Source: Prorocentrum cordatum (lineage: Eukaryota > Sar > Dinophyceae > Prorocentrales > Prorocentraceae). From it: a DNA stretch of 64,000 nucleotides. Of the stretch, positions 1-53,403 are shown in pieces (the first letter of the stretch is position 1; each line of letters starts with the position of its first letter). The DNA lies in assembly GCA_963575745.1 (NCBI GenBank), contig CAUYUJ010005669.1, forward strand, positions 1 through 64,000, given 5' to 3'. A program made the translations under genes and the position numbers. The notes under the pieces were generated by a model, which was not told the DNA's origin, searched no databases, and saw nothing but the letters and a program-made list of their open reading frames with translations.

Positions 1-6
1 ACCACC

Positions 7-1968
7 GTGTTCAAGAGTCTGTGCAAGTACTGTTGCATCCGCAACCCTGACTCACGGATCCCTGTTCTCTTGGATTCCCAAGTGGCACTAGGCGCGGCCG
101 CCCACGGTCGGAGCAGCTGCCCTGGCCTTTCGCACGTGTTGAGCACCTGCTTGCCCTACATTTTGGGGGGCGGGCTCTACATGGGCGGGCTCTACGTCCC
201 GACCGACGTCCACCGAGCGGACGACCCCACGCGCAATCGCCCTGTTCGCCCCCCCTCGCGTGTCGAGCCTGCTTGGTTGCTTGACATAGACGAGGGTCGC
301 TTTGAGCGATTCGACATGATAGCGGCCGCCGACGCCGCCTCCGCGTACCCGACTTGTCTGTGGGGCCGGTTCGTGCTGCAAGTACTGGCTCGCAGCCCCG
401 CCGCGGGCGCAGGCCCGCTCGGGCACCCCGAGGATCGCCACGTGGGAGCGCCAGCCCGGGTCGACAGGGGCGACGCGACGGCCTCCGCCGAGGCCCGCGA
501 CGCATATGAAAGCGCCGCGCCGCGCAGGGGGGCTCCTGTCTCCGTCAAGGTGCCCTCGAGCGCGGCGGCGGTGAGCTTCTCCGCGTCGCGCTGCACTCGC
601 GCCCGTGACAGCCTGCCGGCCGCCCCTCGGGTACCAAGCCCTTCGCCGTCCCCGCCGGTAGGCATGCGCCCCTCCAGCGATGCTGTTGCGGCCCCGCAGG
701 GAAGGGTTCGCGCCGCCGGTGGAGGGCCAGGAGAGGGCGCGCCCGAGCGGAGGTCACGCGCCAAGAGCGACGCAATCGCCGCTGCTCGACCTGGTACGCC
801 CAAGGGGGACGCTCACCCCGTCTCGCTTCTGTCGGAGGCGAACGGCTCGGCTCCAGCTTCGTGGGGGGGTCTTCTGGGTCGTCCGTCCGTCACGATTCAG
901 ACTCGCCACCGCCAAGATCGTGCCGCCAAACTTGTTGCCGCGCTCGATTTGCTCCACCTGGAGCGCGGTGCGACCACTGATCGCGTGAACGCTCAATTTC
1001 GACGGATGGGTTGGGCCTGCCATCCCGACCGCGATAAGTCGATCGAGGCCAGCAGGAAATGGCGTGCTCTCTGTGACGCCAAAGCCTTCCTCCTCGGGCC
1101 TGGGCGCGATGTTACCGGCCCCGATGCCCCGGCCTCTGGCGGCGCTACTCGCCGTGCTTTGGGCAGAGGGCTCTTGGCGGCGGGAAGGCGTGACGACGCG
1201 AACCGCTCGCGCGGGGTCGCCACTCGGGATTCGGCTCTCGACGCCTCCCTCGGTGCTCGCCTCCGCGGCATGCCGGGGGTGCGTCGGAGCGCCCCTGGCG
1301 CGTCTCCAGACGCAGAGCCGAGCGCGGTCGCTAGCTGCAGCGACCCAGGGTCGCGGGCTGCGCCACGTTGTACGGTGCAGACCCCCGCGATGCCTACTGC
1401 CGCCATGCGACGCACGCAAGCTCGCCCGGAGGCCGACCTGGGGGCCGCCCGTACCGCGGCCGCGGTGCCCCCGCCCTTTCGAGCCAGCACCCTGCCCCCC
1501 CTGCCCTGCCAGGGTGCCGCGCCGACGCCCATAGCGTCGCGCCGCGCGCCAGCTCTGCACCTGCCCTGCTGGCCGGGCGCTCGCTGGGCGCAGCGGCTAT
1601 GCTGCGTGCTACCCGCGAGCGGGCTGCCAGTGCGGCCACCGCCGGGGCGGCACAACACAGGGCCGTGCTTCCGTGGGGCCACAGCGCAGAGCGCAGCGAG
1701 GTGTCGCCGGCTCCCAGCTTTGCCGACTCCTGCTGCGCCGGCCAGCGTGCCGACTCTTGCGCCGCCCAGCTCACCGCGTCCCGCGGCGACCAGCTCACTG
1801 ACTTACAGCCCTCCCAGCTCACCGACTCCCGCACCGACCAGCTCGCCGACTCCCGCGCCGACCAGATCGCCGACTCGCGTGCCGAGGGGCTCGCCGACGC
1901 CCGCACCGACCAGCTCGCTGACGCCTTCACCCGTTCCGACTCCCGTGCCGATCCTCTCCCCGGATTAG
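7..1968 (+). CDS. J-domain-containing ORF upstream of a tyrosine recombinase
   Basis: A 653-codon open frame. Residues about 308-366 form a recognisable DnaJ-type J domain: a helix ending in LLHLERGAT, the HPD tripeptide at residues 339-341 (within CHPDRDK), and a helix III-like stretch RKWRALCDAKAFLLG. J domains stimulate Hsp70 ATPase. The rest is low-complexity Arg/Ala/Pro sequence and a C-terminal Pro-Thr-Ser tract (about residues 590-650) encoded by an imperfect 24-nt tandem repeat. No Cys-rich zinc region or client-binding domain is seen, so this is not an ordinary chaperone. It overlaps the recombinase ORF by 600 nt in another frame (reaching it is a -1 shift), which suggests the two belong to one mobile element or one decayed polyprotein. 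The first in-window ATG is used; the true start may lie left of the window. The J domain is fairly certain, the gene model is not. Confidence 0.5.
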   Translation: MFKSLCKYCCIRNPDSRIPVLLDSQVALGAAAHGRSSCPGLSHVLSTCLPYILGGGLYMGGLYVPTDVHRADDPTRNRPVRPPSRVEPAWLLDIDEGRFERFDMIAAADAASAYPTCLWGRFVLQVLARSPAAGAGPLGHPEDRHVGAPARVDRGDATASAEARDAYESAAPRRGAPVSVKVPSSAAAVSFSASRCTRARDSLPAAPRVPSPSPSPPVGMRPSSDAVAAPQGRVRAAGGGPGEGAPERRSRAKSDAIAAARPGTPKGDAHPVSLLSEANGSAPASWGGLLGRPSVTIQTRHRQDRAAKLVAALDLLHLERGATTDRVNAQFRRMGWACHPDRDKSIEASRKWRALCDAKAFLLGPGRDVTGPDAPASGGATRRALGRGLLAAGRRDDANRSRGVATRDSALDASLGARLRGMPGVRRSAPGASPDAEPSAVASCSDPGSRAAPRCTVQTPAMPTAAMRRTQARPEADLGAARTAAAVPPPFRASTLPPLPCQGAAPTPIASRRAPALHLPCWPGARWAQRLCCVLPASGLPVRPPPGRHNTGPCFRGATAQSAARCRRLPALPTPAAPASVPTLAPPSSPRPAATSSLTYSPPSSPTPAPTSSPTPAPTRSPTRVPRGSPTPAPTSSLTPSPVPTPVPILSPD

Positions 1969-3866
1969 CATTGCGCACCAGCCGGGTCGTTGGCCCGACG
2001 GCCACGGTTGCGAGGCGCGTGCGTGACGAACGGCGCGCTCTGGCGCGGTTCCGTGCCTCGGTCGAGGTTCTCGACGCCGCTCTTACCGAAGTTGAATTCG
2101 GTCGAGGCGCGGAGGCTTGGGGTCCAAGTGCAGGAGAGCTGGCTGAGCTTTTGCAGACGACACTGGCCGAGCTCGAGCGCCAGAAGGCTGCGTTGTGCAT
2201 CGCCCGCTCTCGCACTGCCGAGTGCGTCAGAGGGTCCGCTTCCGCCTCGGGCTTTTCGGGTGGAGGCGCCGCCGCAGCCGCTGCCGGCGCACCCCCGAGA
2301 GCTCCCGCCACGGCTGGTAGCGCTACTTTTGCAGCTCAAGCGAAGGAGCGTGCGGATAAGCACACGGCTAGCTATCGCGACGTGGTCGAGGCTAGGGCTC
2401 ATTCGGGCGCCCAGGCGTCGCATCCGCGCGAGCGCCGTGGCGTCGGGCGCCCGTGCTCTGCGGCGCCCGTCACGCCACGGACCGCCATTAGTTGCGATGA
2501 GCGCTCCCGCTCCGCAGCACCTGCCGCCGCCCGCTCGGCTGCGTTTTCCGAGACGCTGTGCGCTGTTGACCGCAGGCGGCGCGAGCACTCCCCAGGACTC
2601 AGGCCTCTGATCCTGGACGGCACGGACCGCCAGCCGGAAGCCGCGCCGAGCACCGGCGAGGTCGTCGAGGCCCCCCGCGCCGAGCAACGCGGCCGCACCT
2701 CGCGTCGCAAGCGCAGGCGTGTTCGGGCTTCCGCCGGAGCGGCAGCTACCACTCCTGCCAATCCCTCTGGTCAAGAGCCGCCCGCGTCAGCCTTCGTGGC
2801 AGGGCGCCAGGACTGGCCTGCCTCTCTGGAGCCTGCCCTTCCCGAGGGGGCTTCCGAGGCCCTCGGGGTGAAGGTGGAGAGCCACTCTCGGCGCGTCCCC
2901 TCTTGCGGCGACCAGCGCACTCGTTCGCTTAAGGCGTTTGACGTGTGGTGCGCCGAGCACACAGGAGTGGCGCTTGCCACATGGGCTCGCAGCGGCATCT
3001 TGCTCGGGAGAGCGCTCGCGACCTTCGGCGTGTGGTTGTACGATGCTGGCTTCCCCCGCCTCGTCCTCGTGAATGCGATCCGGGGAGCACAGGCCCTTCA
3101 GCCCCACTGGAGGGGCTTCCTCACCGAGGCGTGGGATGTGGCGGAACGGTGGATCCCTTCCAAGCCTCCCTGCCCCCTCCCACCGCTACCGCGTGCTCTG
3201 CTGCGCGCCATGGTAGCGTTGTGCCTCGCATGGGACTGGCCGGATATGGCCACCCTGCTGCTTGCCGGGTTCACTATGTCCGTGAGGCCTGGTGAGTTGG
3301 CAACCGCCCGCCGGAGCGACCTCACTCTGCCCATTGACCGCCGTGAGTCCACGGGCGACGCTTTGCTGAGCATCTCTGTTCCGGAGGCCCGGGGGTCTGG
3401 CGGAGAGCGTCAACACGCTCGGTGCTCCGATCGTGCAGTGGTCAGGATGATGGAGCTGGTCTTTAGAGATTTGAGTCCCACCGATCCCCTATTGACCTTC
3501 GGTCAAAGCGGCTTCCGCACTCGGTGGCTCGATCTTCTTTCGGCGCTGGGCGTCCCGCTCGCCAGAGCGCCATCGGGGTTCGATCTGTCCCCTGCGCTGC
3601 GCTTCAGAACCGATATTTCGGACGGCATTATTCGCGTCTTCTGGCGTGATCGCTGGCGGCTAGCTTCCAGTACAGAGCGCTATCTCCACGATGCTGCCGC
3701 CTCTGCAGTCCTCCCATCATTGGCTGAAGCCGCTCGGGACCGCGTTTCTTACCTCGCCGAAGCAAGCGACCTCCTCGTCGCATCCTTTCTGAATGTTGGC
3801 CCAGCTGTGTGGCCCATTCAGCTCGCGGCCGCCCGCCGAAACCTTGTCACTTCGCAAGGGCTTTGA
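1368..3866 (+). CDS. Tyrosine-recombinase (phage-integrase-fold) ORF of a mobile element
   Basis: An 832-codon frame. The N-terminal half is low complexity and includes 8-residue repeats of the type DQLADSRA (nt about 1786-1960). Residues about 510-800 look like a tyrosine recombinase: a helical core-binding part, the box I arginine in SVRPGEL (R640), a box II-like arginine in SPALRFR (R745), a WRDRW segment (759-763) where HxxR-GRW normally leads to the nucleophile, and a candidate nucleophile in ERYLHD (Y772). The usual box II histidine and the GRW glycine are absent, so activity is doubtful. Such recombinases integrate DIRS/Ngaro retroelements and Cryptons. No reverse transcriptase is seen upstream in the window. 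A 165-bp direct repeat starts 11 bp after the stop, which fits a recombinase element terminus. Confidence 0.6.
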   Translation: MYGADPRDAYCRHATHASSPGGRPGGRPYRGRGAPALSSQHPAPPALPGCRADAHSVAPRASSAPALLAGRSLGAAAMLRATRERAASAATAGAAQHRAVLPWGHSAERSEVSPAPSFADSCCAGQRADSCAAQLTASRGDQLTDLQPSQLTDSRTDQLADSRADQIADSRAEGLADARTDQLADAFTRSDSRADPLPGLALRTSRVVGPTATVARRVRDERRALARFRASVEVLDAALTEVEFGRGAEAWGPSAGELAELLQTTLAELERQKAALCIARSRTAECVRGSASASGFSGGGAAAAAAGAPPRAPATAGSATFAAQAKERADKHTASYRDVVEARAHSGAQASHPRERRGVGRPCSAAPVTPRTAISCDERSRSAAPAAARSAAFSETLCAVDRRRREHSPGLRPLILDGTDRQPEAAPSTGEVVEAPRAEQRGRTSRRKRRRVRASAGAAATTPANPSGQEPPASAFVAGRQDWPASLEPALPEGASEALGVKVESHSRRVPSCGDQRTRSLKAFDVWCAEHTGVALATWARSGILLGRALATFGVWLYDAGFPRLVLVNAIRGAQALQPHWRGFLTEAWDVAERWIPSKPPCPLPPLPRALLRAMVALCLAWDWPDMATLLLAGFTMSVRPGELATARRSDLTLPIDRRESTGDALLSISVPEARGSGGERQHARCSDRAVVRMMELVFRDLSPTDPLLTFGQSGFRTRWLDLLSALGVPLARAPSGFDLSPALRFRTDISDGIIRVFWRDRWRLASSTERYLHDAAASAVLPSLAEAARDRVSYLAEASDLLVASFLNVGPAVWPIQLAAARRNLVTSQGL

Positions 3867-3877
3867 GCCTGGGTATG

Positions 3878-4305
3878 GCTGCTGCGGCCTCCCTTGGCCG
3901 CCCGGGTGCCCTCGTTGGACGAGGCCGCCTGAGAGCGTCGCACGGCCCGCCCGCGTAGGCCTGTCCCGCTTTACGGGCCGCCGCGGGCGCGCGCCGCGCG
4001 TTCGCCCTGAGACGACTGCTCACTTGCGCAGCGTGCGGGGATGCTCCTTCTTATCCCCATCGCGCCCGCTGATTGCAGTCGTCTGCAGCTTCTCGGCCCC
4101 CTCCCTCTCTCCTCCCTCCTTCTTCGAAGGCTGACCTGCGGCGCTGCTGCGGCCTCCCTTGGCCGCCCGGGTGCCCTCGTTGGACGAGGCCGCCTGAGAG
4201 CGTCGCACGGCCCGCCCGCGTAGGCCTGTCCCGCTTTACGGGCCGCCGCGGGCGCGCGCCGCGCGTTCGCCCTGAGACGACTGCTCACTTGCGCAGCGTG
4301 CGGGG

Positions 4306-4307
<2 letters not shown>
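3878..4307 (+). repeat. 165-bp perfect direct repeats around a 100-bp spacer, just after the recombinase ORF
   Basis: Positions 3878-4042 and 4143-4307 appear identical by eye over 165 bp, at an offset of 265. The spacer 4043-4142 differs. The array starts 11 bp after the recombinase stop and ends against a CAT microsatellite. The order B1-A2-B2 is the 3' end layout of Ngaro/DIRS elements with split direct repeats. A plain tandem duplication is the alternative. Confidence 0.65.
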
Positions 4308-4366
<59 letters not shown>

Positions 4367-4369
4367 GCA
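4308..4369 (+). repeat. (CAT)n / (CAG)n trinucleotide tract
   Basis: About 36 nt of CAT/ATC repeats followed by about 24 nt of CAG repeats. A related CAT tract followed by GCAGCAGCAT lies at about 5160-5210, so this tract belongs to the duplicated block described next. Confidence 0.85.
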
Positions 4370-5167
4370 TCAACGGTTTCCGAACACCAACACCATCGCC
4401 AACACTTTCATCACCAGCATCAACACCAACAATACCATCACCACCACCGTTGTCATTTTAGGGAGCTTGTCTTGTGAACTCACGTCATCCTGACCCCTGG
4501 CGCCCCTTCCCACGTCTGCCAGATAACTACCCCTCACTGCACTCCACTTCATTCGACTCTACTCCACTCCTCCGCCCTCCTCTTGAGACCGACTCTATCA
4601 TCCCGAAGCTCCTGCGTTCTTCAGACCTTCTCCCCACTTTTCCCCTCCTCGGGGCCTCACGTGAAATGCACTCAGTTTGAGTAGCGCTCATGTATGAACC
4701 GGTCTTTGAAACACGTCTGGGTAAGAAGAGTTTCGTGGTTTCGTTGATGTGGATGTACATGTGGGCGTGCAGGTAACAGGGCGTTGCCCCCTCCCGCCGC
4801 AGGCCTCTGCTCTCGCGGAACTGGTACAACTGGATGGAACTGATCACTGAATTGGTCCATTGAAAATGTGGTCCGGCATAGAACAGGTCGACATTCTGAA
4901 AAGAAAGAATAGAAATATGTTCAATTCTTTACTTGAAGCGACCAGCTCTATGCCGGACCATATTTTTAATGGACCAGTTCTATGACCAGTTCCATCCATT
5001 TATACCAGTTCCGCGCAAGCAGAGGCCTGCGGCGGGGGGGGGGGCAGCGCCCTGTGACCTGCACGTCCATGCGACCTGCACACCCACATCTACATCCACA
5101 TCAACGAAACCACGAAACTCTCTCTCTACCCAGACGTGTTTCAAAGACCAGCTCATCAATATCATCG

Positions 5168-5198
<31 letters not shown>

Positions 5199-5567
5199 GA
5201 GCAGCAGCATCAACGGTTTCCGAACACCAACACCATCGCCAACACTTTCATCACCAGCATCAACACCAACAATACCATCGCCACCACCGTTGTCAGTTTA
5301 GGGAGTTTGTCTTGTGAACTCACGTCATCCTGACCCCTGGCGCCCCTTCCCATTCCTGCCAGATAACTACCCCTCACTGCACTCCACTCCATTCGACTCT
5401 ACTCCACTCCTCCGCCCTCCTCTTGAGACCGACGCTATTATCCCGAAGCTCCTGCGTTCTTCAGACCTTCTCCCCACTCTTCCCCTCCTCGGGGCCTCAC
5501 GTGACACGCACTCAGTTTGAGTAGTGCTCACATCTCATAGCTATATGAACCGGTCTTTGAAACACGG
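4361..5567 (+). repeat. About 360-bp direct duplication flanking an inverted repeat
   Basis: 4361-4719 recurs at 5201-5567 with an offset of 840 and few mismatches; both copies contain CAACGGTTTCCGAACACC and end near ACCGGTCTTTGAAACACG. Between them lies an imperfect inverted repeat with arms 4696-4892 and 4941-5154 and a loop of about 50 bp. The short frames seen here are repeat translations, not genes. Confidence 0.75.
4696..5154. mobile_element. Foldback (inverted-repeat) element, about 200-bp arms
   Basis: The left arm begins GAACCGGTCTTTGAAACACG and the right arm ends with its complement near CGTGTTTCAAAGACCAGCTC. The arms match over about 200 bp with scattered substitutions and small indels; the loop is AT-rich. 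It has no coding capacity. The copies of the duplicated block on both sides share its outer sequence. Confidence 0.6.
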
Positions 5568-5573
5568 TGGGTG

Positions 5574-5822
5574 GACAAAAAGTGTCCACCCCATCGCGCC
5601 AATGCGATGCGACATCGAATTGCGTCGAACAAATATCCATCGCCTCCGCCCCCCCAACCCAAAGTTGACGGGGTTGGGTGCGAGGCAACGCGCGGGGGAC
5701 AAAATATGGACACTTCAACTTTGGGTCTGGGGGTGATGGGGGGCGAGCCACATGTATATTGCAAGTGTCGTTGCCATCATGCCTGACTGTCTTCACGCCG
5801 TCGGTGTGGACACTTTTTGTGC
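5574..5822. mobile_element. Foldback MITE-like element, about 250 bp
   Basis: The ends are inverted copies of ACAAAAAGTGTCCAC (left about 5575, right about 5808-5821 as its complement). Internal arms also pair: AACCCAAAGTTGA on the left with TCAACTTTGGGT at about 5716. No frame of note and no clear target-site duplication. Confidence 0.55.
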
Positions 5823-6585
5823 GGGGACCGCAGCTCATCCAGAATCGATGTTCCGGTGAGGTAAAGGACCTGAAGGCAAGTCGCTCCAGAGTTTTCTGGA
5901 GCGCTCTGAAACGGCCGCGACGCCCTACACATTCTCTGGGGATCGCCAGCTCTCAGCGAGTCCCGCTTAAGTTTCATCCGAATATATCTTCATCCTGGCT
6001 TCGTCTTAGAGACTTGTTTTGACCGCGGAATTGTAGGAGCAGATCGTGACAGAGGGGGGGTGCAGTCGCCGCATTGTTCGTGGGATCTCCCGGACAGAGT
6101 CGCCGCGAATGCTTGACATGGCTGCTTGCTCGTTTTGTCCGTGACAACACAGAGGCGCCGAGAGATCGGTAGACTGCCATACAGGCCTTCCCCTCTTGGA
6201 GCCATGTCGGTGCTCTCGCCATCGTAAGACCTCCAGAAGCCATGTGGAACCGATAGACCCAATGAGGAGCCACCAGTCCTCCAGGTAATTTACAATTTCT
6301 TCTGCCTAAGGCTTCACTTAGGGTTTTTCAAAGCGTCTGGTTACCTCATTGTTCGCCTCTGCGGACCTCCTGTGGCCCGTTTGGGGGCATGTTGGGGCTT
6401 CCTTGGCCCGCGCCGCCCTCGACGCCTCGCTGTCTCGGCGACGTCTCGGAGACCTCTTGGGTATTCAGCTCTCCCCCACTTGTTTCGAGGCCTCCCAGAT
6501 GGGGTCAGAGAAAATGGGATCGGAGGATCGCGCCACATCGCCGATGCATCCGACCTCATCTACTCGGACCCCATTTGGGAGCTAT
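5823..6585. other. No gene recognised
   Basis: Moderate-GC sequence with no conserved domain in six frames. A short inverted pair (AGATGGGGTC near 6496, GACCCCATTT near 6570) leads into the palindromic element that follows. Confidence 0.5.
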
Positions 6586-6770
6586 GGTTCGGGGGCGGCC
6601 AAGAGGGGGGAGTGGGGCGCGGATGACTGGGAGGGGGGTGGATATCCTGGCCGCGGCCAGGAGATCCCCCCAAATCTGAACCCCCACTCCCGTCTTTTTC
6701 GACACGCCCCTTGGCTCCCCTTTCGGCCGCGCACGCGCCTCGGGCCACGATCTGCGAACCCCCCTCTTGG
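6586..6770. mobile_element. Palindromic element, family 2, copy 1
   Basis: It contains GGGGGCGGCCAAGAGGGGG near the start, a central palindrome ATCCTGGCCGCGGCCAGGA, and CGGCCGCGCACGCGCCTCGG near the end. The same arrangement recurs at 34598-34765 inside the glycosyltransferase gene. Non-coding. Confidence 0.55.
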
Positions 6771-7017
6771 ACGTCCCCCTCTGGGACGCCCCCGACGGGT
6801 GACTCTGCCCCCTCCCCCCGCGGTCAAATTTGCGACGTGTGGTCTCGGGGGGAGGGACGGGGGGGGGGAGGGTCCGACGAGCCCGGTGGTGCCGGCGGGC
6901 CCTTTGCCAGATTGCTTTCTGCCAGGGCGAGGTGTGATTGGAGGAGGATCGGGCGGAAGGCGACGGGCGGGCAGTACACGAGAGGGGATCGAGCGTCGCA
7001 GAAATCGAGTCGAACAA

Positions 7018-7175
7018 CATAATGGATACACGTAAATTTTCAGAGCTCCGCGCGGATCTGTTGGATCGGCGCTGGGCCTCGCTGGCAGCGCCCCCGGCGC
7101 CCGCCCTGGCGCGCTCCGCGCGCCAGGGATGGGGCCCAGCACCGTTCCGAGCGGAGCTCCGACAGTTTGTGTTTC
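7018..7175. mobile_element. Palindromic element, family 1, copy 1
   Basis: The left end resembles ACTTTCGGAGCTCCGCGCGG followed by TTGGATCGGCGCTGG. The centre is CTGGCGCGCTCCGCGCGCCAG-like. The right end is the complement, GCGGAGCTCCGACAGTTTGTG. The whole unit could fold into one hairpin. It is the type example of the commonest short element in this window. Confidence 0.65.
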
Positions 7176-7224
7176 GCCGTTTAGGAAGGCGGCCCCAAGG
7201 GCTAAATGGACTCTAATTTAACGG

Positions 7225-7320
7225 CCGCCGCGGGCTTCGCTGGAGCAGGAGGAGGAAGAGGAGGAGGAGAAGGAGGAGCAGGAGCAGGAGGAGTAGGAGG
7301 AGGTTCCCCTGGCTCCCTCT
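7225..7320 (+). repeat. GGA/AGG purine repeat
   Basis: About 70 nt of GGAGGA-type triplets on the + strand; low-complexity only. Confidence 0.7.
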
Positions 7321-7439
7321 GTCCCTTTGTCCGAGCCTTCTCTATCATTCATCCCTTCCCCCCTTCTTTGCTCCACCTGCCCTTCTATCTGCAACGCTCT
7401 GCCATCTATCCTCGCGCACGCACTGCTCTTTAGTTTTTC

Positions 7440-7660
7440 CTCCTAGGGGGGATGTCTGTCTTCTCGCAGGCGCCTCTCATGGCGTCTTTGGGGCTTTGGG
7501 GGGGGTTCGGGGGGCCTCCTGGGGTCTCATGGGGGCCTCTTGTGTGATTATCGGGGGCTCGCTGGAGTCCTCTCGGGGGCCTCTTGAGGACTCCTGGGCA
7601 CCTCTGTGGGCTGCCTTGGGGCTCCCCTGGGGGCCTCGGGGGCCATCTAACAGCCATCTG
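7440..7660 (+). repeat. Degenerate GGGGGCCTC tandem repeat, array 1
   Basis: Loosely repeated words of the type CTTGGGGGCCTC at intervals of roughly 20-35 nt. The same vocabulary, often on the other strand as CCAAGAGGCC, recurs at 8.1-9.0, 10.7-11.3, 28.0-28.5, 30.1-30.7 and 39.2-39.6 kb. Confidence 0.6.
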
Positions 7661-8072
7661 GGAAGAAATCGATCAAAGGAGGGGCCGTGCTCAATTAAGG
7701 CCCCACCCTTCTGGAGGCCAGCGCGTGGCCAAGACCTTGGCGCCAATAGTGTTTCGGCTTCCTCGACGAGGCCATCTTGGACGCTCTAACTGCTCGCGAC
7801 CCTCACCTCCGAACCCAGAGAGGGAGGGGGGAGGGGGGGGCAAACCCCTCCCCGAAAGGGAAGATGGGGGGGTGGAAGGGGAACCGCTCTAAGCCACTCG
7901 CGCCTTAGAGGGCTCGTTGGATTGGCCTGGTCGTGCTCCCGCCTTCATTCGCGAAAAGCGACAAAAGACCACGCCGACCTCGCCGTCTTCTTCCTCCACC
8001 TCCTCCTCCTCCTCCTCTTCCTCCTCCCCCCTCCTCCTCTTACATCTTGCTCGCGCACGTCTTTAGCCCCCC
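7661..8072. other. No gene recognised
   Basis: GC-rich unique-looking sequence ending in a CCT-type pyrimidine tract at about 7985-8040. No conserved domain. Confidence 0.45.
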
Positions 8073-9030
8073 CAAGATGGCGCCTGTAGCCTCCCAAAGA
8101 CACGCAAGAGACCTCTGGCAAGCATCCCAGAAAGCCCAAGAGGCAACCAGCGAGCCCCCAAGAGGCGCCGAAGAGCTCTCCGAGAGGCCCCGCAAAAGCG
8201 CTCCCAAGCGAGATGCCGCGGCGTCTCGCTCGCTGAGTTTTTTGTGCCTCGCAAGGTGGCCCATAGAGCCTCCCAGAGACGCCCCGCAAGCCCCCGGCAA
8301 GCCTCCCGGAGAGCCTAAGAAACCACCAGTGCCCCCCCAAGAGGCGCCCAAGAGTTTTCCAAGAAGCCAAACAAAAACGCGCCTGGGCGAGATGCCGCGG
8401 CATCTCGCTCGGGGACATTGTTGGGGCCTCCCGAGATGGCCAGTAAAGCCTCCCAGAGACGCTAAAGAGGCCCTTACCAAGCTTCCAGGAGAGCCCACGA
8501 GACCCCAAGAGGCGCCCAAGAACGCTTGCAGAGGTTCCACAGACACGCGCCCGAACAACATACCGCGGCATCTCGCTCGCGGAAATTGTTAGTCTCCCCG
8601 AGATGGCGCCTGGAGCCTCCCAAACACGTTCCACAGACCCTCCCAAACACGTTCCAGGAGAGCCCAAGAGGCTACCAGTGAGCCCCCAACAGGCGCTCAA
8701 GAGTTCTCCAAGAGGCCCCACTCGCTCGCGGACATTTTGAGCCCCCCAAGGTGGCCCGTGGAGCCTTCTAGAGACGCTCAAGAGGCCCCCACTGAGCTTC
8801 CAGGAGAGCCCAAGAGGCCCCAAGAGGTGCCCGAGAGCTTTCGAAGAGGCCCGCAAAAGCGCTCCCGGGCGAGGTGCCGCGGCATCTCGTTCGCAGACGT
8901 TTTTGGAGGGGGCCCGCCAGGTGGTCCCTGGAGCGTCCCAGAGACGTCTAAGAGTCCGCCAGCAAGCCCCTACAAGAGCCCAAGAGGCCACCAAATGAGC
9001 CCCCGAGAGGCGCCCATGAGCTCGCCATGA
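8073..9030 (+). repeat. Satellite array, about 6 units of 150-180 bp, with a 20-bp palindrome
   Basis: Unit starts (AAGRTGGCSC...GAGCCTCCCA) fall at about 8073, 8251, 8432, 8600, 8748 and 8916. Most units carry a version of the perfect palindrome CGAGATGCCGCGGCATCTCG (exact at about 8389-8408, variants near 8210, 8555 and 8870) followed by CTCGCGGACA-like sequence. A long minus-strand frame across it is repeat-encoded and not a real protein. Confidence 0.7.
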
Positions 9031-9096: not shown

Positions 9097-9277
9097 TGGC
9101 GTGTGTGTGTGTGGTGTGTGTGTGTGTGCGTGTGTGTCTCTATGTGTGTGTCTGTGTATGTGCGTTTGCGTGTGCGTGTACGTGCGTGCGTGCGTGTTCG
9201 TGTGTGTGTGAGTGAGTGAATGAGTAAGTGAGCGTGTGTCTGCGTGTGAGAGAGAGAGAGTGTGTGCGTGTATGTGT

Positions 9278-9342
<65 letters not shown>

Positions 9343-9343
9343 C

Positions 9344-9392
<49 letters not shown>

Positions 9393-9430
9393 GGTGCGCG
9401 TGTGTGTGTGTGTGTGTTTGTGGGTGTGCG
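9097..9430 (+). repeat. (TG)n microsatellite with CG interruptions
   Basis: About 330 nt of alternating purine-pyrimidine, mainly TGTG with CGTG and a run of CGCG at about 9280-9292. Potential Z-DNA former. The Val/Cys and His/Thr frames through it are artefacts. Confidence 0.95.
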
Positions 9431-10116
9431 CACCCTCCTTCGTTTGCGCGTTCTTTCCCTCCCGCTTCCCTTCCCCTCCCGTTACCGTTCCAACACGGGA
9501 TCATCCCCCCCCCATCCCCATCTTCCTCGCAGGAGCTATCCTTCCTCCTCTTGGTTCCCTTCCCCTCCCCCTCTTTCGCCTCCTCCTGGTCTTGGCGCAG
9601 TTCCCCCCTGAGAGTCCGAAGTGTTCCTGGGGAGCGAAGGGCCCCTAGGGATCGAAACTCGCAGCTTTTTTTTTCTGTTCGCGTGAGACTCGATCCAACA
9701 CAAGTGCTGCTACTCGTCCCTTTCATCCAGCTGCTGCCGCCGATCGGCACGCTCCTCCTCCGCCTCCTCGTCCTGCCCCTTCACGCCCGCGTTTGACCCT
9801 GAGTGCTTGCGCGCTCGTGCCAGGAACCTCCTCTCCTTTGCGTTCTCCTCCCTCCTCCTCTCTTCTTGTGCCTGCTCTGTGCTATACTGGGGCAGCTTCC
9901 GTGCAAGCTAGGGTGGAGTTTGGGCCCGCGGAGTATCGAATGCCTCCACACCCGACGTCTCATCCTCCGGCAGTCTTGCCTCTGGCCCCCTTCTTCGCTG
10001 CGCCCCGCGACCGGCGCCTAGCGACTGCCTCGTCGCGCTGGACCTCGACGGCTCCGAGGAGGACGCCGTGTGTCGCGGCAAGACTAGCGGCCGATTCTTA
10101 TAGAATGAGAAAAACG
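9431..10116. other. No gene recognised
   Basis: Pyrimidine-rich then mixed sequence; no domain in any frame. Confidence 0.45.
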
Positions 10117-23800: not shown

Positions 23801-24742
23801 GTTCTCGTGTTCTGTTTTACCTCTGGGCTCGCCGCCGATGCCGCCGCGGACGTTGCCATCTGCGGCAAGAAGTCGTCTGCCCAACAGTGACCGTCTTTTG
23901 CTTTGGCAACTATGCGTTCTGGCATCGTGTCGTGCCCATTTTTGCAGTACCTCGTCGGGGCGTTTCAACAAATTGGTTGTGCAAGGGCAGTTGCAGTTGT
24001 CAGATACGCGGTCGAGTTGCAAGTTGAACGAGGGAAAGTGGAGGGTTAGGTTCCGGACGATCGCGAGAAGGAGAGACGGCTTGCGAGAGAGAGGGAGTAT
24101 GGGATATGCAAGGGGTGCATAATCAGGTGAAGAGAGAATGACAGATTGAGAACACCAAGCAGGCGACAACGGCGGATACTTGCTCGGGGCCGTTCGGTAC
24201 CTACCCAAGGCTCATCATAGAGCCGATCTTCAGGCTTTCTGGTCTAGTAAAGTAACCCAGCCGGGCTCTTCTTGGTGTGCTCAGTCTGTTATGGGAGCCT
24301 GCTTATCCACGTGTCAGATTGTTGGCGGACCCACTTAGTCTACAGAGATGGCGTGTCGCATGACTTGCGCGTCGTTGTTCAACTTGGGATTGCGCGTATG
24401 TCTTACAATATTTCAGCTGTGTTAAATCTGTACATATAGATAAGAAAAAGTCCAGCTGTCTGCGGCACACCCCGCCACCGCGCCTGTGCAACAGCGCAGC
24501 AGGGAGTAGACTGAGTGTAGGAACGGCACAATGCCGCCTGCTGGTTTGAAATGGGGCGGGTCGTGATCTCGACCTCGTCTCCTTCCGCGCGGTAGGGGAC
24601 AGGTCGAGTTCTCTCCCTTCTGCAGCTCAGCGAGCGGTCTGAACTGAGGCGGATCCTGATTTCGACCTTGTCTTCGTTCGCGCGGTCGGGAGGAGGAGGA
24701 GGAGGAGGAGGAGGAGGAGAGGGAAACCATAAAGACAATGAG
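23801..24742. other. No gene recognised; tandem pair of about 55 bp and GGA tract
   Basis: TGAAATGGGGCGGGTCGTGA-TCTCGACC (about 24547) is echoed by TGAACTGAGGCGGATCCTGA-TTTCGACC (about 24639), both ending in CGCGCGG. A (GGA)n tract occupies 24690-24720, just before the spliced-leader relict. Confidence 0.5.
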
Positions 24743-24779
24743 GCCGTAGCGATTCTGGCTCAAGCCATTCTGGCTCAAG
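24743..24779 (+). other. Tandem relict dinoflagellate spliced leader (DinoSL)
   Basis: 24743-24764 matches the 22-nt dinoflagellate spliced leader at 20 of 22 positions: G, CCGTAGC, then GATTCTGGCTCAAG in place of CATTTTGGCTCAAG. It is followed without a gap at 24765-24779 by CCATTCTGGCTCAAG, the last 15 nt of the leader with one T-to-C change. The second piece begins exactly after the internal AG of the leader (CCGTAG|CC...), which can serve as a trans-splice acceptor. This is the known signature of an mRNA that was trans-spliced, reverse-transcribed into the genome, transcribed again and retroposed again. Confidence 0.85.
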
Positions 24780-24780
24780 T

Positions 24781-25398
24781 TTGAAACTCGTTCCGCGGGG
24801 TTTCGAGTTTGTGGTTCCCGCCGCCGTGCGGCAAAAACCGTTGTGGCGCCCGACACATCTGTTCTCTCCCGTGTGCGGGGGGACGTCCGTTCTTGTGGAG
24901 CCACGAACGGCCCCCCAGTCTCGCTGGTGGGAATCATCCAGTCTTCGCCATGCTGACCCGTGGACGTGCGGGGCCTGCAGCAAAAGGGGACATTTCGCCA
25001 CGCAGGTTCAGTGTCGATCGTGTTTCGACCCAGCCCCGAAACATGCGCAACGTTACATCAGCAAGGCCGCCCCCCTGTAGCCCAAGGGGCAGGGCAACGG
25101 GGGCAAGCCTGATGGTGGCGGCCCTCGCGCCCCTCGCGGCGCTGCTCGCGGCGTTGGCGGCCGCGCTGGCGGTGATGGCGCCGCTACTTGGGGCTTGCAC
25201 GGGTCTGGGGCAGCCTTCTTCGCCAAGCAGGCTGACAGAGACAACCTTCTCGCCAAGATCGACAAAGTCATCGGCACCCTCGAGGCCTTGCTGGACTCCC
25301 TGAACGCCGAGATCGAGCGCGAGAGGGCGGAACGAGCTGTCCTGGTGGCTGAACAGCGTGTTGGCAAGCCCGTCAAAGGGGCGCGTTCATCTCCAAGC
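24781..25398 (+). pseudogene. Retrocopied zinc-finger plus coiled-coil protein, frameshifted
   Basis: Directly after the spliced-leader relict, one frame gives a Cys4 motif WTCGACSKRGHF...VQCRSC (nt about 24959-25026). A second frame, from about 25195, gives a heptad-like helix RDNLLAKIDKVIGTLEALLD and ALLDSLNAEIERERAERAV. A WxCxxC...CxxC finger followed by a coiled coil resembles the N-terminal protein of dinoflagellate LINE-type or other retroelements as I know them. The frame change between the two parts and the leader relict indicate a retrocopy that has decayed. The finger could bind nucleic acid; a host gene origin is also possible. Confidence 0.45.
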
Positions 25399-25639
25399 GG
25401 GCGCGCGCGACGGGGCGGGCGCGCCAGTCGCGAGCGCCCCGACCCAGGCGCGCCGAGGAGAAGAGGAGCATCCACTTCTTCCCCCCTCCTCCCTTCGCCC
25501 GCTGTCTTCGGCTGGCGGGGGGGGGGGTCCCATGTGCGATGCGTTATCATCTATGGAATGGTGTAGTTATGGGTTCCGGCGTAAACGCACGCGGTTTCAG
25601 AAATCCCGCCGACCGGGATCCTCCTGTGCCAGCGCAAGA

Positions 25640-26086
25640 CGATCGAATCTCAAGCCATGGCGAAACATATGCCAGGCCGAGGTATTCAGGCCCTTCGAGC
25701 AGGAGCTCACGTGGCAGAGGTTTGGGCCGCACGTCGCGCGCCGTTCGGGGTTCACCCTGGCGCGCGCGTCCTAGCTGACCTCAACACTGTCGCGGGGCTT
25801 GACGCTGCGCAACAGCGTCACCATCGACTGCGCCAAGGGTGAAGACGCTGGTCCCACGGGCATGTCGGATGAGCAGCGGCGGCTGCACATATATGTCATG
25901 TTTTCCCGCGCCACGCGCATACGGAACATGCTGGGTCTGCGGTCTCTCACGCGAGAGTTCCTACAGCGCGGGCCGCCGTTTCCCCCGCGGACGGCCTTCG
26001 GGGATCTCGGCATGACGGCGGAGAGCTCCAGGGCTGAGGCGGAACAGCTCGCGGCAGAGTTGGGCTTCGCTCTATCTCCCGCCTGA
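25640..26086 (+). pseudogene. Pif1/SF1-like helicase C-terminal remnant with in-frame TAG
   Basis: One frame reads WQRFGPHVARRSGFTLARAS, TAG at 25772-25774, then LTSTLSRGLTLRNSVTIDC and, further on, RRLHIYVMFSRATRIRNMLG and REFLQRGPPFP, ending in a normal stop at about 26084. GFTLxxA...QGxTL and YVxxSRAT correspond to the last helicase motifs (V/VI) of Pif1/RecD-like SF1 enzymes. The expected A(x)TxHxxQG segment is changed and interrupted by the stop. The N-terminal Walker A and B regions are not present nearby, so this is a 5'-truncated, broken copy, probably from a mobile element. Confidence 0.45.
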
Positions 26087-26129: not shown

Positions 26130-26460
26130 CTTTGATCCCGCGCCCCAGCGGCCCGCGGGGTTGTCCCAAGGGCTTAGTGGGGGTTGCCCGAACTGCTTCG
26201 CGATCTGGCCATCGGGAACGCGCCCATGCCAGCTGTTGCGGTAACGGCGCCAAAGGGATCGATTTGCGTGCCATTGCTAGAGGGGTGGGGGAGGAGGTGG
26301 ACGGGGTAGAAGAGGCAGGAGGACAAGAAGGAGGCGAAGCAGGGGGTGGGATGAGGGCCTCCGCCAGGGCGAAAGAAGGAGAATGCTATGAGGACACGGG
26401 AACGGAGCTTCTGCATTCACAAGGGCGACGATGACATTCACCTCCAGATTCGATTGGAAG
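26130..26460 (+). repeat. Dispersed repeat R1, copy 2
   Basis: GGCCCGCGGGGTTGTCCCAA, CGCGATCTGGCCATCGGGAA, CGCCAGGGCGAAAGAAGG and GACGATGACATTCACC occur in the same order as in 12780-13110. Diverged. Confidence 0.45.
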
Positions 26461-46655: not shown

Positions 46656-47266
46656 GGCTGCGAAATCCCAATCCCATCCTCGCCGATCAACGATTCGTGC
46701 AACTCGATGGGCGGCGAGGGTAGTGTTCGGAATGCGTCGAACACGCACGTGGCGAAATCCGAACCCTGCCTCCGCCTGCGTCGGCACGGGGGCGTCGATG
46801 GCTGGCTGGCGGGGGCAGGGTTCACGTGGCGTCATCTACAGAGGAGGGGGCGAGTTGAGACAACGGAGGTTGGCCTCCGGAGGGGCTCCCTCGTCGCCGC
46901 GGCTGGGCGCATGTCGGACAATTGGCGATTTCGCCGGGGGGCCCGCTTTGAGCCCTCGTTGATTGAATTCGCCTTGCTCCTTTACGTGGGGCTGGCTCGG
47001 AGGCCCCGGACTGGATGGGCGCGGGGCGCTTTCGGCCCTCGAAGGGTTTGAGATGGGCGCTCGGTCTTCAAAGGGTTCGACGTGGAAGCGCTCTCTTCCC
47101 GTCTCCGTTCCTGCGTTCCCTCTTCTCACCCCCCCCTCCCCCCCTGCTCCTCCGCCGCGTCTGCGTCCGTGCCCTGACATTGCCCTCCGCCCGAAGAGGG
47201 CCCGCGCGCGCGGCGCCCCGGCGAGGGGCGAACGACAAGAAGAAGCATAATCATAAGATGAAGAAG
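46656..47266. other. No gene recognised
   Basis: GC-rich; open frames without domains. Confidence 0.4.
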
Positions 47267-47735
47267 AAGACCCCACCCAAACGCACGCGCGCACACGCGC
47301 GCACACGCATGCACACACACACACACGCACACACACGCACACACGCACACGCACGCACACGCACACGCACACACGAAACACACACACACACGCACGCACG
47401 CACGCACGCACGCACACGCACTCACACACACACAAACACACACACACACGCACGCACACACACACATACACACACACACGCACACACACACACACACCAC
47501 ACCACACACACGCACACAATCACACACACACACGCACACACGCACACACGCATGCACACACACACACATTCGCACACACGCACACACGCACACACACACA
47601 CACACACGCGCGCACACGCACGCGCACACGCACGCGCACACGCACACGCACACGCACGCGCACGCGCACGCGCACACACACGCACACACACACACACACT
47701 CACGCACACACACACACACACACATCGGCATAACA
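47267..47735 (+). repeat. (CA)n/(CACG)n microsatellite
   Basis: About 470 nt of CACACA with CGCA interruptions (alternating pyrimidine-purine, possible Z-DNA). His/Thr and Val/Cys frames are artefacts. Confidence 0.95.
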
Positions 47736-47792
47736 CAACAGCAAGAAACAAACATCCAACAAACCAACTTCTGGGATTTAGTCAGGGAGTGG

Positions 47793-49310
47793 GTGGCGGG
47801 GGTGCACGTAGTGTATATTATTCTCTTGCGCGGGGTGTCTAGAGCTCCGGCCGCGCCATTCCGCGCCGCGCCCCCCCCCCGCGCCCCCGGCGCCAGAGCG
47901 GGGCCCCCGCGCCGCGGCCCCTGCCCCGAGCCCCCCCGCGCCCCCAGCGTTCCAGCGGGGGCCCCGTCCACTGCCCATTCCGCCGCGAACGCTGCATCCC
48001 GCGTCGCGCACCTCCCCCCCCGCAGTGGCAGCCGCGATCGGCGCCGCCCGCGCTCGGTGGGCCGCCGCCGCGGCCCCTCGCCGAGCCGCGAGGGCCGCCG
48101 TGCCGCCGCTCACGGCGGGGGGGCGGCGCACCTGGCGAAGGCCCCGGCCAGCCTTGGCCCCCGTCAATCCGGCCGTGAGGAGTTCGACGGCGCGACGCGC
48201 AAGGCGTCGGGGGGTGCGCCGAAGGCAGGCACCCCGCAGGCGGCGACAGTCCCACTGGCCATGCCCTGGGCGGCGGGGCCGTCGCCGCCGCCGGCGGAGT
48301 GGCCGACGCCGTTCGGCCCGATGGCGATGGCGTTGGCCGCGGGACAGCTGGCCGGGGCGGGAATGCCATGGGCGGCCGGCCTCATGGGGCCCCCCAGGCG
48401 CGCGCGGGGCAATCCTCTGCGCGGCGCGGCAGGATGGGCGGGCGCGACGCCGCCGCCATCGGGGCCGCCGAAGGGCGGGGTGGCGCCCCCCGTCGCCGCG
48501 GCCATGGCCGCGCGCGCCCCCGCGCCAGTCCCGGAGCCGACCGCGCCGTTGACGACGCCGCCGTCGCCCCCGGCCGTTGGAGCGGGCGGCGCCCCTCCAC
48601 CCGGGCATTTGGTCGAGGGCCCGCCGGGAGCAGTGGTGGCCCCGGGCGCGCGCGCCCCCATGTGCCCGCCGCCGGGGGCCCCCGTGGGCAGCGCGGTGCG
48701 CTGGGCGGGGGCGCCGCAAACGCCGCCCGCGGCGCCCCTGGCGCCGGCCGCGCCCGCCGCGACGCCGGGCGGCGCCGCGCAGCACGGGGCGGCGGCCGCC
48801 GACGCGGCAGACCGCACCGGGGCACCGCCGCCCGCCATGCAGCCGCCCCCCGGTCACCGGGCGGCGGGCGGCTCGCAGCCGCCGCTGGCGTTGCGCCCGC
48901 CCCCAGGCCTGGCGGGGCCGGCGGCCGCCCCCGAGGAGGATTTGTGCGGAGGTGCTGTGATCGCGCGGGAGGCGGCACCTGCCGCCGCCGCCGCCCGGGG
49001 CGGGGCGGGCGCGCCGGCGGCGGCCCCCGCCGAGAGGGGCGACGCGGAGCCTGACGACGACGGCGTGGAAGAGCTCGTCGCGGCCGTCCGCGCTGACATC
49101 GAGCTGATCGAGATCGAGGGGGCGCTCGAGCACGCGAAGATGTGTCGGGGCCGTGCTGGGCAGCTCCTCGCCGGGAACTGCCGGCTGCTGCCGCCCGTGC
49201 CCCACGGGGCAAGGTCGCCCTTGAGCTCTTCAGCGGGGCGGGGCGGTGGGCGCAGGCGTGGCGGCAGGAGGCAGGTCTCAGGGGCATCCCGGTCTTCGAG
49301 TGGGATCTGA
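47793..49310 (+). CDS. Proline/alanine-rich ORF upstream of methyltransferase-like domain
   Basis: A 505-codon frame in sequence of extreme GC. It is dominated by Pro, Ala and Gly. The only structured-looking part is near the C terminus: an acidic stretch ERGDAEPDDDGVEELVAAV then RADIELIEIEGALEHAKMCR (nt about 49035-49145), a likely helix. The methyltransferase-like domain starts about 50 nt later in another frame, so the acidic helix may be its natural N-terminal extension and the long frame itself a by-product of GC content. No signal peptide or named domain. Confidence 0.3.
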   Translation: MAGVHVVYIILLRGVSRAPAAPFRAAPPPRAPGARAGPPRRGPCPEPPRAPSVPAGAPSTAHSAANAASRVAHLPPRSGSRDRRRPRSVGRRRGPSPSREGRRAAAHGGGAAHLAKAPASLGPRQSGREEFDGATRKASGGAPKAGTPQAATVPLAMPWAAGPSPPPAEWPTPFGPMAMALAAGQLAGAGMPWAAGLMGPPRRARGNPLRGAAGWAGATPPPSGPPKGGVAPPVAAAMAARAPAPVPEPTAPLTTPPSPPAVGAGGAPPPGHLVEGPPGAVVAPGARAPMCPPPGAPVGSAVRWAGAPQTPPAAPLAPAAPAATPGGAAQHGAAAADAADRTGAPPPAMQPPPGHRAAGGSQPPLALRPPPGLAGPAAAPEEDLCGGAVIAREAAPAAAAARGGAGAPAAAPAERGDAEPDDDGVEELVAAVRADIELIEIEGALEHAKMCRGRAGQLLAGNCRLLPPVPHGARSPLSSSAGRGGGRRRGGRRQVSGASRSSSGI

Positions 49311-51937: not shown

Positions 51938-52515
51938 TGCAGCTCGAGCACCCGACGTGCAAAGGCGCGCCGCGTTTCGCATGCTGCTGCGAGTCGGGGC
52001 CCCGCCGGGTGGCAGCGCGCAGACAAGTCGCAGCGAGGGAGGGGGGGGGGGGTGTCTTGGACATCGGGGCGTTTCCTGTAAAACACGCCCGATTCCTCAC
52101 GGCCCCCAGCCCCGAGAGGGGAGAGGGGGGCGGGGGGAGGCGGGCGCCCCGAGGGGGGGGGGGCGAGAAGGGGGGGGGGCGGACACTGATGGCGAATGGC
52201 AAGGAGGAGGAGGGGAAGGAGGAGGAGGAGTTGGGCAACTTGAAGAAAAAAGGGAAGTCGGCAATTCCATTTTTTTGCTTTAGAAAAGTTGCGGAGGAGG
52301 GCAATGAGGAGGAGGACGAGGAGGAGGGGGGTGAAGGAAGGCAGGGGGAGGATGAGGGAGGCGAAGGGGAGGGGGGGGGGGGGGCAAGGGGAGGGGGCGC
52401 GACCCTGTGGGCCACTACGAGAACGCCCCTAAACCGGATGCAACCCCCAGCCGCCTTGGCCGCCAACATCATTTCATAATTGTTTTACGAACAAGGGGCC
52501 ATTATGCGCCGCCAG
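51938..52515. other. Purine-rich G-run region, no gene
   Basis: GGAGGAGG and runs of up to 12 G at 52036-52400; possible G-quadruplexes on the + strand. The 60-80-codon-per-frame readings are low complexity. Confidence 0.6.
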
Positions 52516-52660
52516 ACTACCCCCCCCCGCCACCCCCCCCCCCCCCCCCCCCACCCCACACCCACCCCACCCCACCCACCAGCACCACCACCACCAACCA
52601 CCGCCACCACCACCACCACCTCACCCCACCAGCACACACGCAACACGCACACCACAGCAC
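52516..52660 (+). repeat. Poly(C) and CCCCACC/CCACCA tract
   Basis: A C-run of 20 (52532-52551) followed by CCCCACCC and ACCACC repeats. Confidence 0.85.
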
Positions 52661-52972
52661 ACACACACACCACACACGCACACGCACACGCACACGCACA
52701 CGCACACGCACACGCACACGCACACGCACACGCACACGCACACGCACACGCACACGCACACGCACACGCACACGCACACGCACACGCACACGCACACGCA
52801 CACGCACACGCACACGCACACGCACACGCACACGCACACGCACACGCACACGCACACGCACACGCACACGCACACGCACACGCACACGCACACGCACACG
52901 CACACGCACGCACACGCACGCACGCACACGCACACGCACACGCACACGCACACGCACACGCACACGCACACG

Positions 52973-53005
<33 letters not shown>

Positions 53006-53403
53006 ACACGCACACGCACACGCACACGCACACGCACACGCACACGCACACGCACGCGCACACGCACGCGCACGCGCACACGCACACGCACACACGCACA
53101 CGCACAACGCACACGCACACGCACACGCACACGCACACGCACACGCACACGCACACGCACACGCACACGCACACGCACACGCACGCACACGCACACGCAC
53201 ACGCACACGCACACGCACACGCACACGCACACGCACACGCACACGCACACGCACACGCACACGCACACACGCACACGCACACGCACGCACACACACACAC
53301 ACACACACACACGCGCGCACACACACGCACACGCGCACGCACACACACACACACACACACGCACACACACACACACACACACACGCGCACACACGCACAC
53401 ACC
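52661..53403 (+). repeat. (CACACG)n hexanucleotide array, about 740 bp
   Basis: Nearly uninterrupted CACACG from about 52675 to 52905 and again with single CGCA or CACA slips to 53403. The CG dinucleotide every 6 bp and alternating pyrimidine-purine order favour Z-DNA. Not the dinoflagellate telomere repeat (TTTAGGG). The open frames are artefacts. Confidence 0.95.

Follow-up and report, generated by a model that had tools for sequence, protein, structure and literature searches.

What do the two spliced leader (SL) sequences standing one behind the other at 24743-24779 of the window belong to, and whose mRNA do they record? The window is the whole stretch of 64,000 nucleotides of Prorocentrum cordatum DNA that was analysed. 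In an earlier note, a 20/22 match to the dinoflagellate leader was described with the last 15 nucleotides of the leader directly behind it, and both the letters and the coordinates were correct on re-reading. By direct reading, 24743-24764 is GCCGTAGCGATTCTGGCTCAAG, which is identical to the SL DCCGTAGCCATTTTGGCTCAAG at 20 of 22 positions (changes C9G and T13C), and 24765-24779 is CCATTCTGGCTCAAG, which equals SL positions 8-22, again with T13C. The second copy does start immediately 3′ of the internal AG (SL positions 6-7), and the T-to-C change said to be common to both copies is found in both, at 24755 and 24770. When the SL 21-mer was searched with at most three mismatches, one match was obtained in the 64-kb window and none in 100 dinucleotide shuffles. 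At a single fixed position, a 15-mer would be matched by chance with no more than one mismatch at a probability of about 4e-8, if equal base frequencies are assumed. The stack is thus composed as follows.

24743 to 24764, forward strand: full-length SL relict, 20/22 (C9G, T13C); the younger copy under the splicing model
24765 to 24779, forward strand: SL relict cut at the internal AG, SL positions 8-22, with T13C; the older copy under the splicing model

Stacks with this anatomy have been published, so the feature itself is not new. Relict dinoflagellate SLs (Slamovits and Keeling 2008, as conveyed in the accessible text of PMC3229502, PMC6050394, PMC7245778, and PMC12014239) have the same SL and, directly behind it, an SL truncated after nucleotide 7 at the AG (SL 8-22), which matches the window. 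They are likewise read as products of repeated splicing and reintegration, and the AG-reuse model itself is given in the corresponding parts of three of these papers (PMC3229502, PMC6050394, PMC7245778). Two AG acceptor sites are described as conserved in the SL (PMC3229502), and P. cordatum transcripts with the dinoSL have been reported (PMC10666404). In dinoflagellates, genomic SL relicts are used to recognise host retrogenes and to count how many rounds of retroposition took place. While the published relicts are discussed, in the text available, as host-retrogene tags, most of the copies sampled here with enough downstream sequence head non-LTR retrotransposons (LINEs), commonly in microsatellites. 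What is new is what the SL relicts belong to, i.e., LINE 5′ ends, many of them in microsatellites, and this most likely applies to the window copy.

How frequent are such relicts in the genome? I searched the assembly (4,128,499,153 bases in 21,875 contigs) for the SL 21-mer, allowing Y in place of one T and up to three mismatches. The search gave 50,263 sites, 318-fold over the 158 sites of the reversed pattern. About 0.8 SL-like sites are thus expected per 64 kb, and a single relict in the window is ordinary for this genome. By another method, 496 and 244 putative DinoSL sequences were counted in two Symbiodinium genomes, according to the accessible part of PMC8045281. Exact-SL loci were sampled as 88 of the at least 100 places listed, in listing order and from low-numbered contigs only, in a first set of 48 and a second set of 40; as for the remaining listed places, C26:180892 falls inside the locus L039 and 11 were left out. 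A second, truncated SL copy with at most one mismatch is present in 14 of the 88 loci (6/48 in the first set and 8/40 in the second set). L094 has two exact truncated copies behind the SL, and L040 has a degenerate third SL unit; under the splicing model, the height of a stack thus gives the minimum number of cycles.

Long open frames are present downstream of the 5′ UTRs in the sampled SL loci. By tblastn, endonuclease and/or reverse transcriptase (EN/RT) matches were found in 28 of the 40 loci having 4.2 kb of downstream sequence and in none of the other 12; L001-L008, with at most 1.5 kb downstream, were left out of this count. The queries were ten EN/RT frames from 10 of the same 40 loci, self matches being excluded, and as controls matches were also sought in the window, in the upstream flanks, and on the opposite strand. 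All of the 110 matches lie on the SL strand, the first match being 1.1-3.2 kb behind the SL start, and none was obtained in 43 kb of upstream flank or in the 64-kb window. In Pfam, 9 of 17 locus frames have EN and/or RT: L028 (RVT_1, E 7e-13; Exo_endo_phos, E 2.7e-6), L011 (RVT_1, E 1.7e-8; Exo_endo_phos, E 8.2e-8), and L009, L010, L017, L019, L024, L041, and L047, several of them below the Pfam cut-off. Neither domain was found in the frames of L014, L032, L036, L038, L048, L018, L037, and L042. Among PDB sequences, the LINE-1 ORF2 protein (8sxt) was matched by L028 with E 4.9e-10, and the L010 ORF matched only exodeoxyribonuclease III (E 0.004). A search for homologous proteins with the L009 ORF returned 7,995 candidates, none of them at E 0.001. 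In summary, many of the sampled SL relicts head APE-type LINEs inserted into microsatellites.

The 5′ ends fall into families. By blastn, 55 of the 88 loci were linked, and all 87 matches are on the same strand; three of these 55 loci have the appearance of a single local triplication in tandem. L064, L065, and L066 are near-identical SL units with a near-identical upstream flank on one contig, where the relict was copied at the DNA level. SINE-like elements were considered when the families shared only about 70-110 nucleotides after the SL, and this idea was dropped on finding the long EN/RT ORFs. There are also SL-headed loci of another kind. L030 encodes a WD40 protein behind a complete SL and a degenerate second relict (4 mismatches), has neither an upstream microsatellite nor an EN/RT match, and looks like a good candidate for a host retrogene. 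Given the LINE-headed loci and L030, SL relicts of LINEs and of host genes seem to coexist in this genome. In L043, L046, and L012, the SL heads an ORF of unknown family without an EN/RT match, and these may be non-autonomous passengers; L043 and L046 sit in microsatellites, and no Pfam family was found in the L043 and L012 ORFs.

In 61 of the 88 exact-SL loci, a simple repeat, in most cases (CCT)n or (GGA)n, lies within the 45 nucleotides before the SL. The first set contributes 39 of 48 (23 CCT, 11 GGA, and 5 other) and the second set 22 of 40, where the strict repeat rule misses several short tracts visible by eye and 18 loci were scored as being without a repeat. As controls, such a repeat was found in 78 of the 1,422 tiles of the window and in 72 of 3,416 tiles located further downstream of the SLs. 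Moving upstream from the SL in the first set, the next three tiles have it in 28, 10, and 6 of the 48 loci; in the other direction, none of the 48 has it in any of the first seven 45-nucleotide tiles. The microsatellite goes with EN/RT, which is found in 26 of 32 loci with the repeat versus 2 of 8 loci without it (Fisher P 0.005; 40 loci). The 3′ end was reached in four of seven extended loci, and a repeat of the same class was found there in all four, although these ends were placed partly by the repeat itself; for L009, L010, and L028, an extension of 1.5 kb did not reach the 3′ end. L017 has (CCT)n before the SL and (CTC)n at 5,626, L011 has (TA)n before the SL and (AT)n at 5,224, L042 is CCT-rich before the SL and TCC-rich from about 6,060, and L019 has CCT before the SL, an ORF at 6-8,364, and a short (CTC)5 at 8,457. 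No poly(A) tail was seen at the 3′ ends of L011, L017, and L042. The same symmetry is seen in the shorter L043 (CCT before the SL and CTC at 1,604) and L046 (AGG before the SL and AGG at 2,637), which lack an EN/RT match.

The simplest reading is that SL-headed elements are inserted into microsatellites. A mere polypyrimidine tract of a splice acceptor was considered for the microsatellite and is insufficient, because repeats such as (GGA)n, (TA)n, and (CAT)n are present as well and because the repeat standing before the SL is found again at those 3′ ends that were reached. A permutation test of family by target gave P 0.003 and was discounted, since its 22 loci were grouped by eye and L039 was labelled by its other SL copy. 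That locus has two SL copies of the same orientation about 1.5 kb apart (L039:800-2360), both behind an ACAGAC-type repeat, perhaps adjacent insertions. In L068, an inverted degenerate SL stack borders the same CCT/AGG tract from its other side, and two SL-tagged elements seem to stand head to head in a single microsatellite.

Does the window copy resemble these elements? The following features were found around the stack.

24688 to 24717, forward strand: (GGA)n microsatellite, probably the insertion target on the 5′ side, separated from the SL by 25 nucleotides
24780 to 24948, forward strand: probable 5′ UTR of the element, for which the nearest of the 88 loci is the LINE L028 (z 5.3)
24742 to 25077, forward strand: frame open in translation through the SL into an ORF1-like zinc finger, with TAG at 25078
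24967 to 25023, forward strand: zinc finger of ORF1 type, W-x-C-x2-C-x11-C-x2-C, found by profile; the Trp codon is at 24961
25216 to 25356, forward strand: heptad-rich stretch after a Gly-rich linker, a possible ORF1 coiled coil judged by eye, as in other ORF1s
26281 to 26301, forward strand: degenerate stretch, by its GGA richness a possible (speculative) 3′ flank of a 1.5-kb defective copy; further GGA-rich stretches occur beyond it, up to 33 kb on

At most other repeat-bearing loci, the repeat directly adjoins the SL. The runner-up for the probable 5′ UTR among the 88 loci is L058 (z 4.2). This region opens with an inverted repeat AAACTCG...CGAGTTT (24784-24790 and 24804-24810), and its RNA folding was no better than that of shuffles (z -0.94 and -1.04). 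At the nucleotide level, the first 550 nucleotides of the window copy had no match at E 1e-3 among the 88 loci. The open frame encodes PWTCGACSKRGHFATQVQCRSCF and has no in-frame ATG upstream of the zinc finger, the ATG at 24950 being in another frame. With a zinc-finger profile trained on 14 loci picked by regex (a 15th locus, L028, was dropped as spurious by eye), the window frame ranked first of the 1,346 window ORFs with E 4.3e-5, the next being 0.15. In the second set, 10 of 40 loci scored E < 0.05 on the SL strand, and the best opposite-strand E was 0.094. Within 480 nucleotides of the SL, the finger regex matched 16 sequences out of 49, the window being one of them and L028 being spurious by eye; the opposite strand gave 0 of 49, and shuffles gave 0.14 on average. 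Among tiles of the window, the regex alone was matched in 4 of 133 on the forward strand and in 3 of 133 on the reverse strand. By tblastn with 745 queries, the L037 ORF1 matches the window finger with E 9.2e-6, and it is the only query that does so; the best-scoring matches, from other queries, fall 3-9 kb behind the SL on repeat-like stretches of low complexity.

Neither EN nor RT was found behind the window SL by tblastn or in Pfam. Since EN/RT is missed by Pfam in 8 of 17 locus frames, the Pfam silence in the window is weak and tblastn is the better test. The stop codon at 25078 and the lack of EN/RT indicate that the window copy is dead and incomplete, and its LINE membership thus rests on the zinc finger, the 5′ UTR, and the context. 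By its sequence, it can be filed only as a 5′ fragment resembling APE-type LINEs. The idea that 25775-26083 resembles a helicase C-terminus was dropped, as nothing was found in Pfam.

In my view, and with a probability of roughly 0.7, the stacked relicts belong to a dead SL-tagged LINE, whose 5′ end they mark. The following mechanism would produce them. An element residing in a microsatellite would be transcribed, and a fresh SL would be trans-spliced onto an AG within its resident SL relict. The resulting SL-5′UTR-ORF1-EN-RT mRNA would encode its own proteins and would be reverse transcribed up to its first nucleotide into another microsatellite. The new copy would then start with an SL again and would carry ready-made acceptor AGs. 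If the terminal AG were used as the acceptor, the old SL would presumably be replaced without a scar; if the internal AG (CCGTAG) were used, a fresh 22-nucleotide SL would come to stand before 15 nucleotides of the old one. It is the latter arrangement that is found in the window, so that at least two cycles may be counted. The earlier note had concluded that the locus records at least two cycles of splicing and reintegration, and it had read this as mRNA recycling, taken here to mean that of a host mRNA. The relict, its truncation at the internal AG, the reuse of the AG, and the published model support the two-cycle part, which is probable, and two rounds of splicing are likely recorded at this locus. 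The host part is not supported, since in the sample the majority of exact SLs head non-LTR retrotransposons, often within microsatellites, and the window SL runs on into a zinc-finger stretch of LINE ORF1 type. The mRNA that was recycled was probably the LINE's own.

Classical recycling, in which the trans-spliced mRNA of a host gene was reverse transcribed and reintegrated twice, would leave an identical SL anatomy, and such copies seem to be present in the genome, as judged from the WD40 locus L030. In the window, however, the frame resembles a LINE ORF1, 24781-25560 in the finger frame contains no Pfam family, and (GGA)n lies upstream of the SL, a kind of flank that is associated with EN/RT in the sampled loci. 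I thus regard a host-gene origin of the window copy as unlikely. A slightly lower probability is given to an event at the DNA level, in which the last 15 nucleotides of a single SL relict were tandemly duplicated by slippage or unequal exchange after only one retroposition. Such a duplication would explain T13C in both copies at once. Against it, the break lies exactly behind the internal AG, as in the 15-nucleotide stacks of the 14 other loci, and T13C recurs at other loci.

The shared T13C is the weak point of the splicing model, because a newly added SL is expected to have the wild-type sequence. Among 21 rows of imperfect SL copies, which include one duplicated row and two register artefacts (none carrying T13C), T13C accounts for 6 of 57 substitutions, two of the six being the window's own. 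T13C and A10G are the commonest substitutions, with 6 each of 57, so that an independent recurrence of T13C is plausible. Its recurrence may be due to a mutational hotspot, to an old SL variant, or to a modified base that the reverse transcriptase misreads. Its presence in both window copies may reflect a variant active leader, as suggested in the earlier note, and also fits a hotspot or a local DNA duplication. Outside the window (24755 and 24770), T13C is carried by copies starting at L012:2423, L026:822, L040:837, and L061:172. Unlike T13, the adjacent T12 has no substitution among the 57.

An SL RNA gene or a cluster of its pseudogenes would also contain the SL exon. At this locus, the SL is followed by CCATT instead of a GT donor, and no Rfam family reached the gathering score in the window, although the weight of this result depends on Rfam containing the dinoflagellate SL RNA. 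Without a donor site and an Rfam match, this reading was rejected as highly improbable.

Returning to the SL-tagged LINE, how does it compare with known elements? APE-type non-LTR retrotransposons such as LINE-1 have the same order of endonuclease and then reverse transcriptase, and an ORF1 zinc finger and a possible coiled coil are also shared. The present elements differ in their putative trans-spliced-leader 5′ end, in their microsatellite ends, and in the lack of a poly(A) tail in L011, L017, and L042, whose 3′ ends were read. Togen, found in (TG)n, and some families of the HERO clade likewise insert into simple repeats; those described in the accessible part of PMC4640811 belong to restriction-like-endonuclease lineages, and no SL tag is mentioned for them there, whereas the elements here are of APE type and carry an SL. 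Several LINEs are known from organisms with SL trans-splicing. NeSL inserts into SL sequences, whereas here the SL is part of the element. SL sequences are also the target of SLACS, while here the SL belongs to the element itself. The trypanosomatid L1Tc/Pr77 elements are likewise LINEs of such organisms. In contrast to the present elements, in which the SL is part of the element, L1Tc is described, in the text available, as having its own promoter and unspliced transcripts (PMC8190864). Neither SL-headed LINEs nor SL relicts in microsatellites were described in the literature searched, most subscription journals being outside its scope. Likewise, that literature held no description of a retrotransposon renewing its capped 5′ end via trans-splicing onto its own relict leader.

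For the genome as a whole, a wider proposal seems evenly balanced to me. Several LINE families would have incorporated the host SL, and the SL of each new copy would be a ready trans-splice acceptor, so that any read-through transcription would re-cap the element without its own promoter. These families would favour particular microsatellites and orientations, would supply the reverse transcriptase for host retrogenes, and would make up most of the approximately 50,000 relicts. If most relicts in this 4-Gb genome are LINE 5′ ends, the counts of retroposition rounds need re-reading, and if this wider proposal is true, relict counts are badly inflated as a measure of host-mRNA recycling. The elements would also be a candidate for the source of the reverse transcriptase, which has so far been assumed but not firmly identified; Ty1/copia elements were found in an EST study seeking the reverse transcriptase behind the recycling, according to the part of PMC3942190 available.

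Elsewhere in the window, a Pfam match to a glycosyl transferase at about 35.2-35.4 kb (E 9e-4, below the cut-off) is unrelated to the stack. Long degenerate tandem-repeat fields occupy 47236-47840 and 52510-53400, and they are related to 9106-9481 in inverted orientation.
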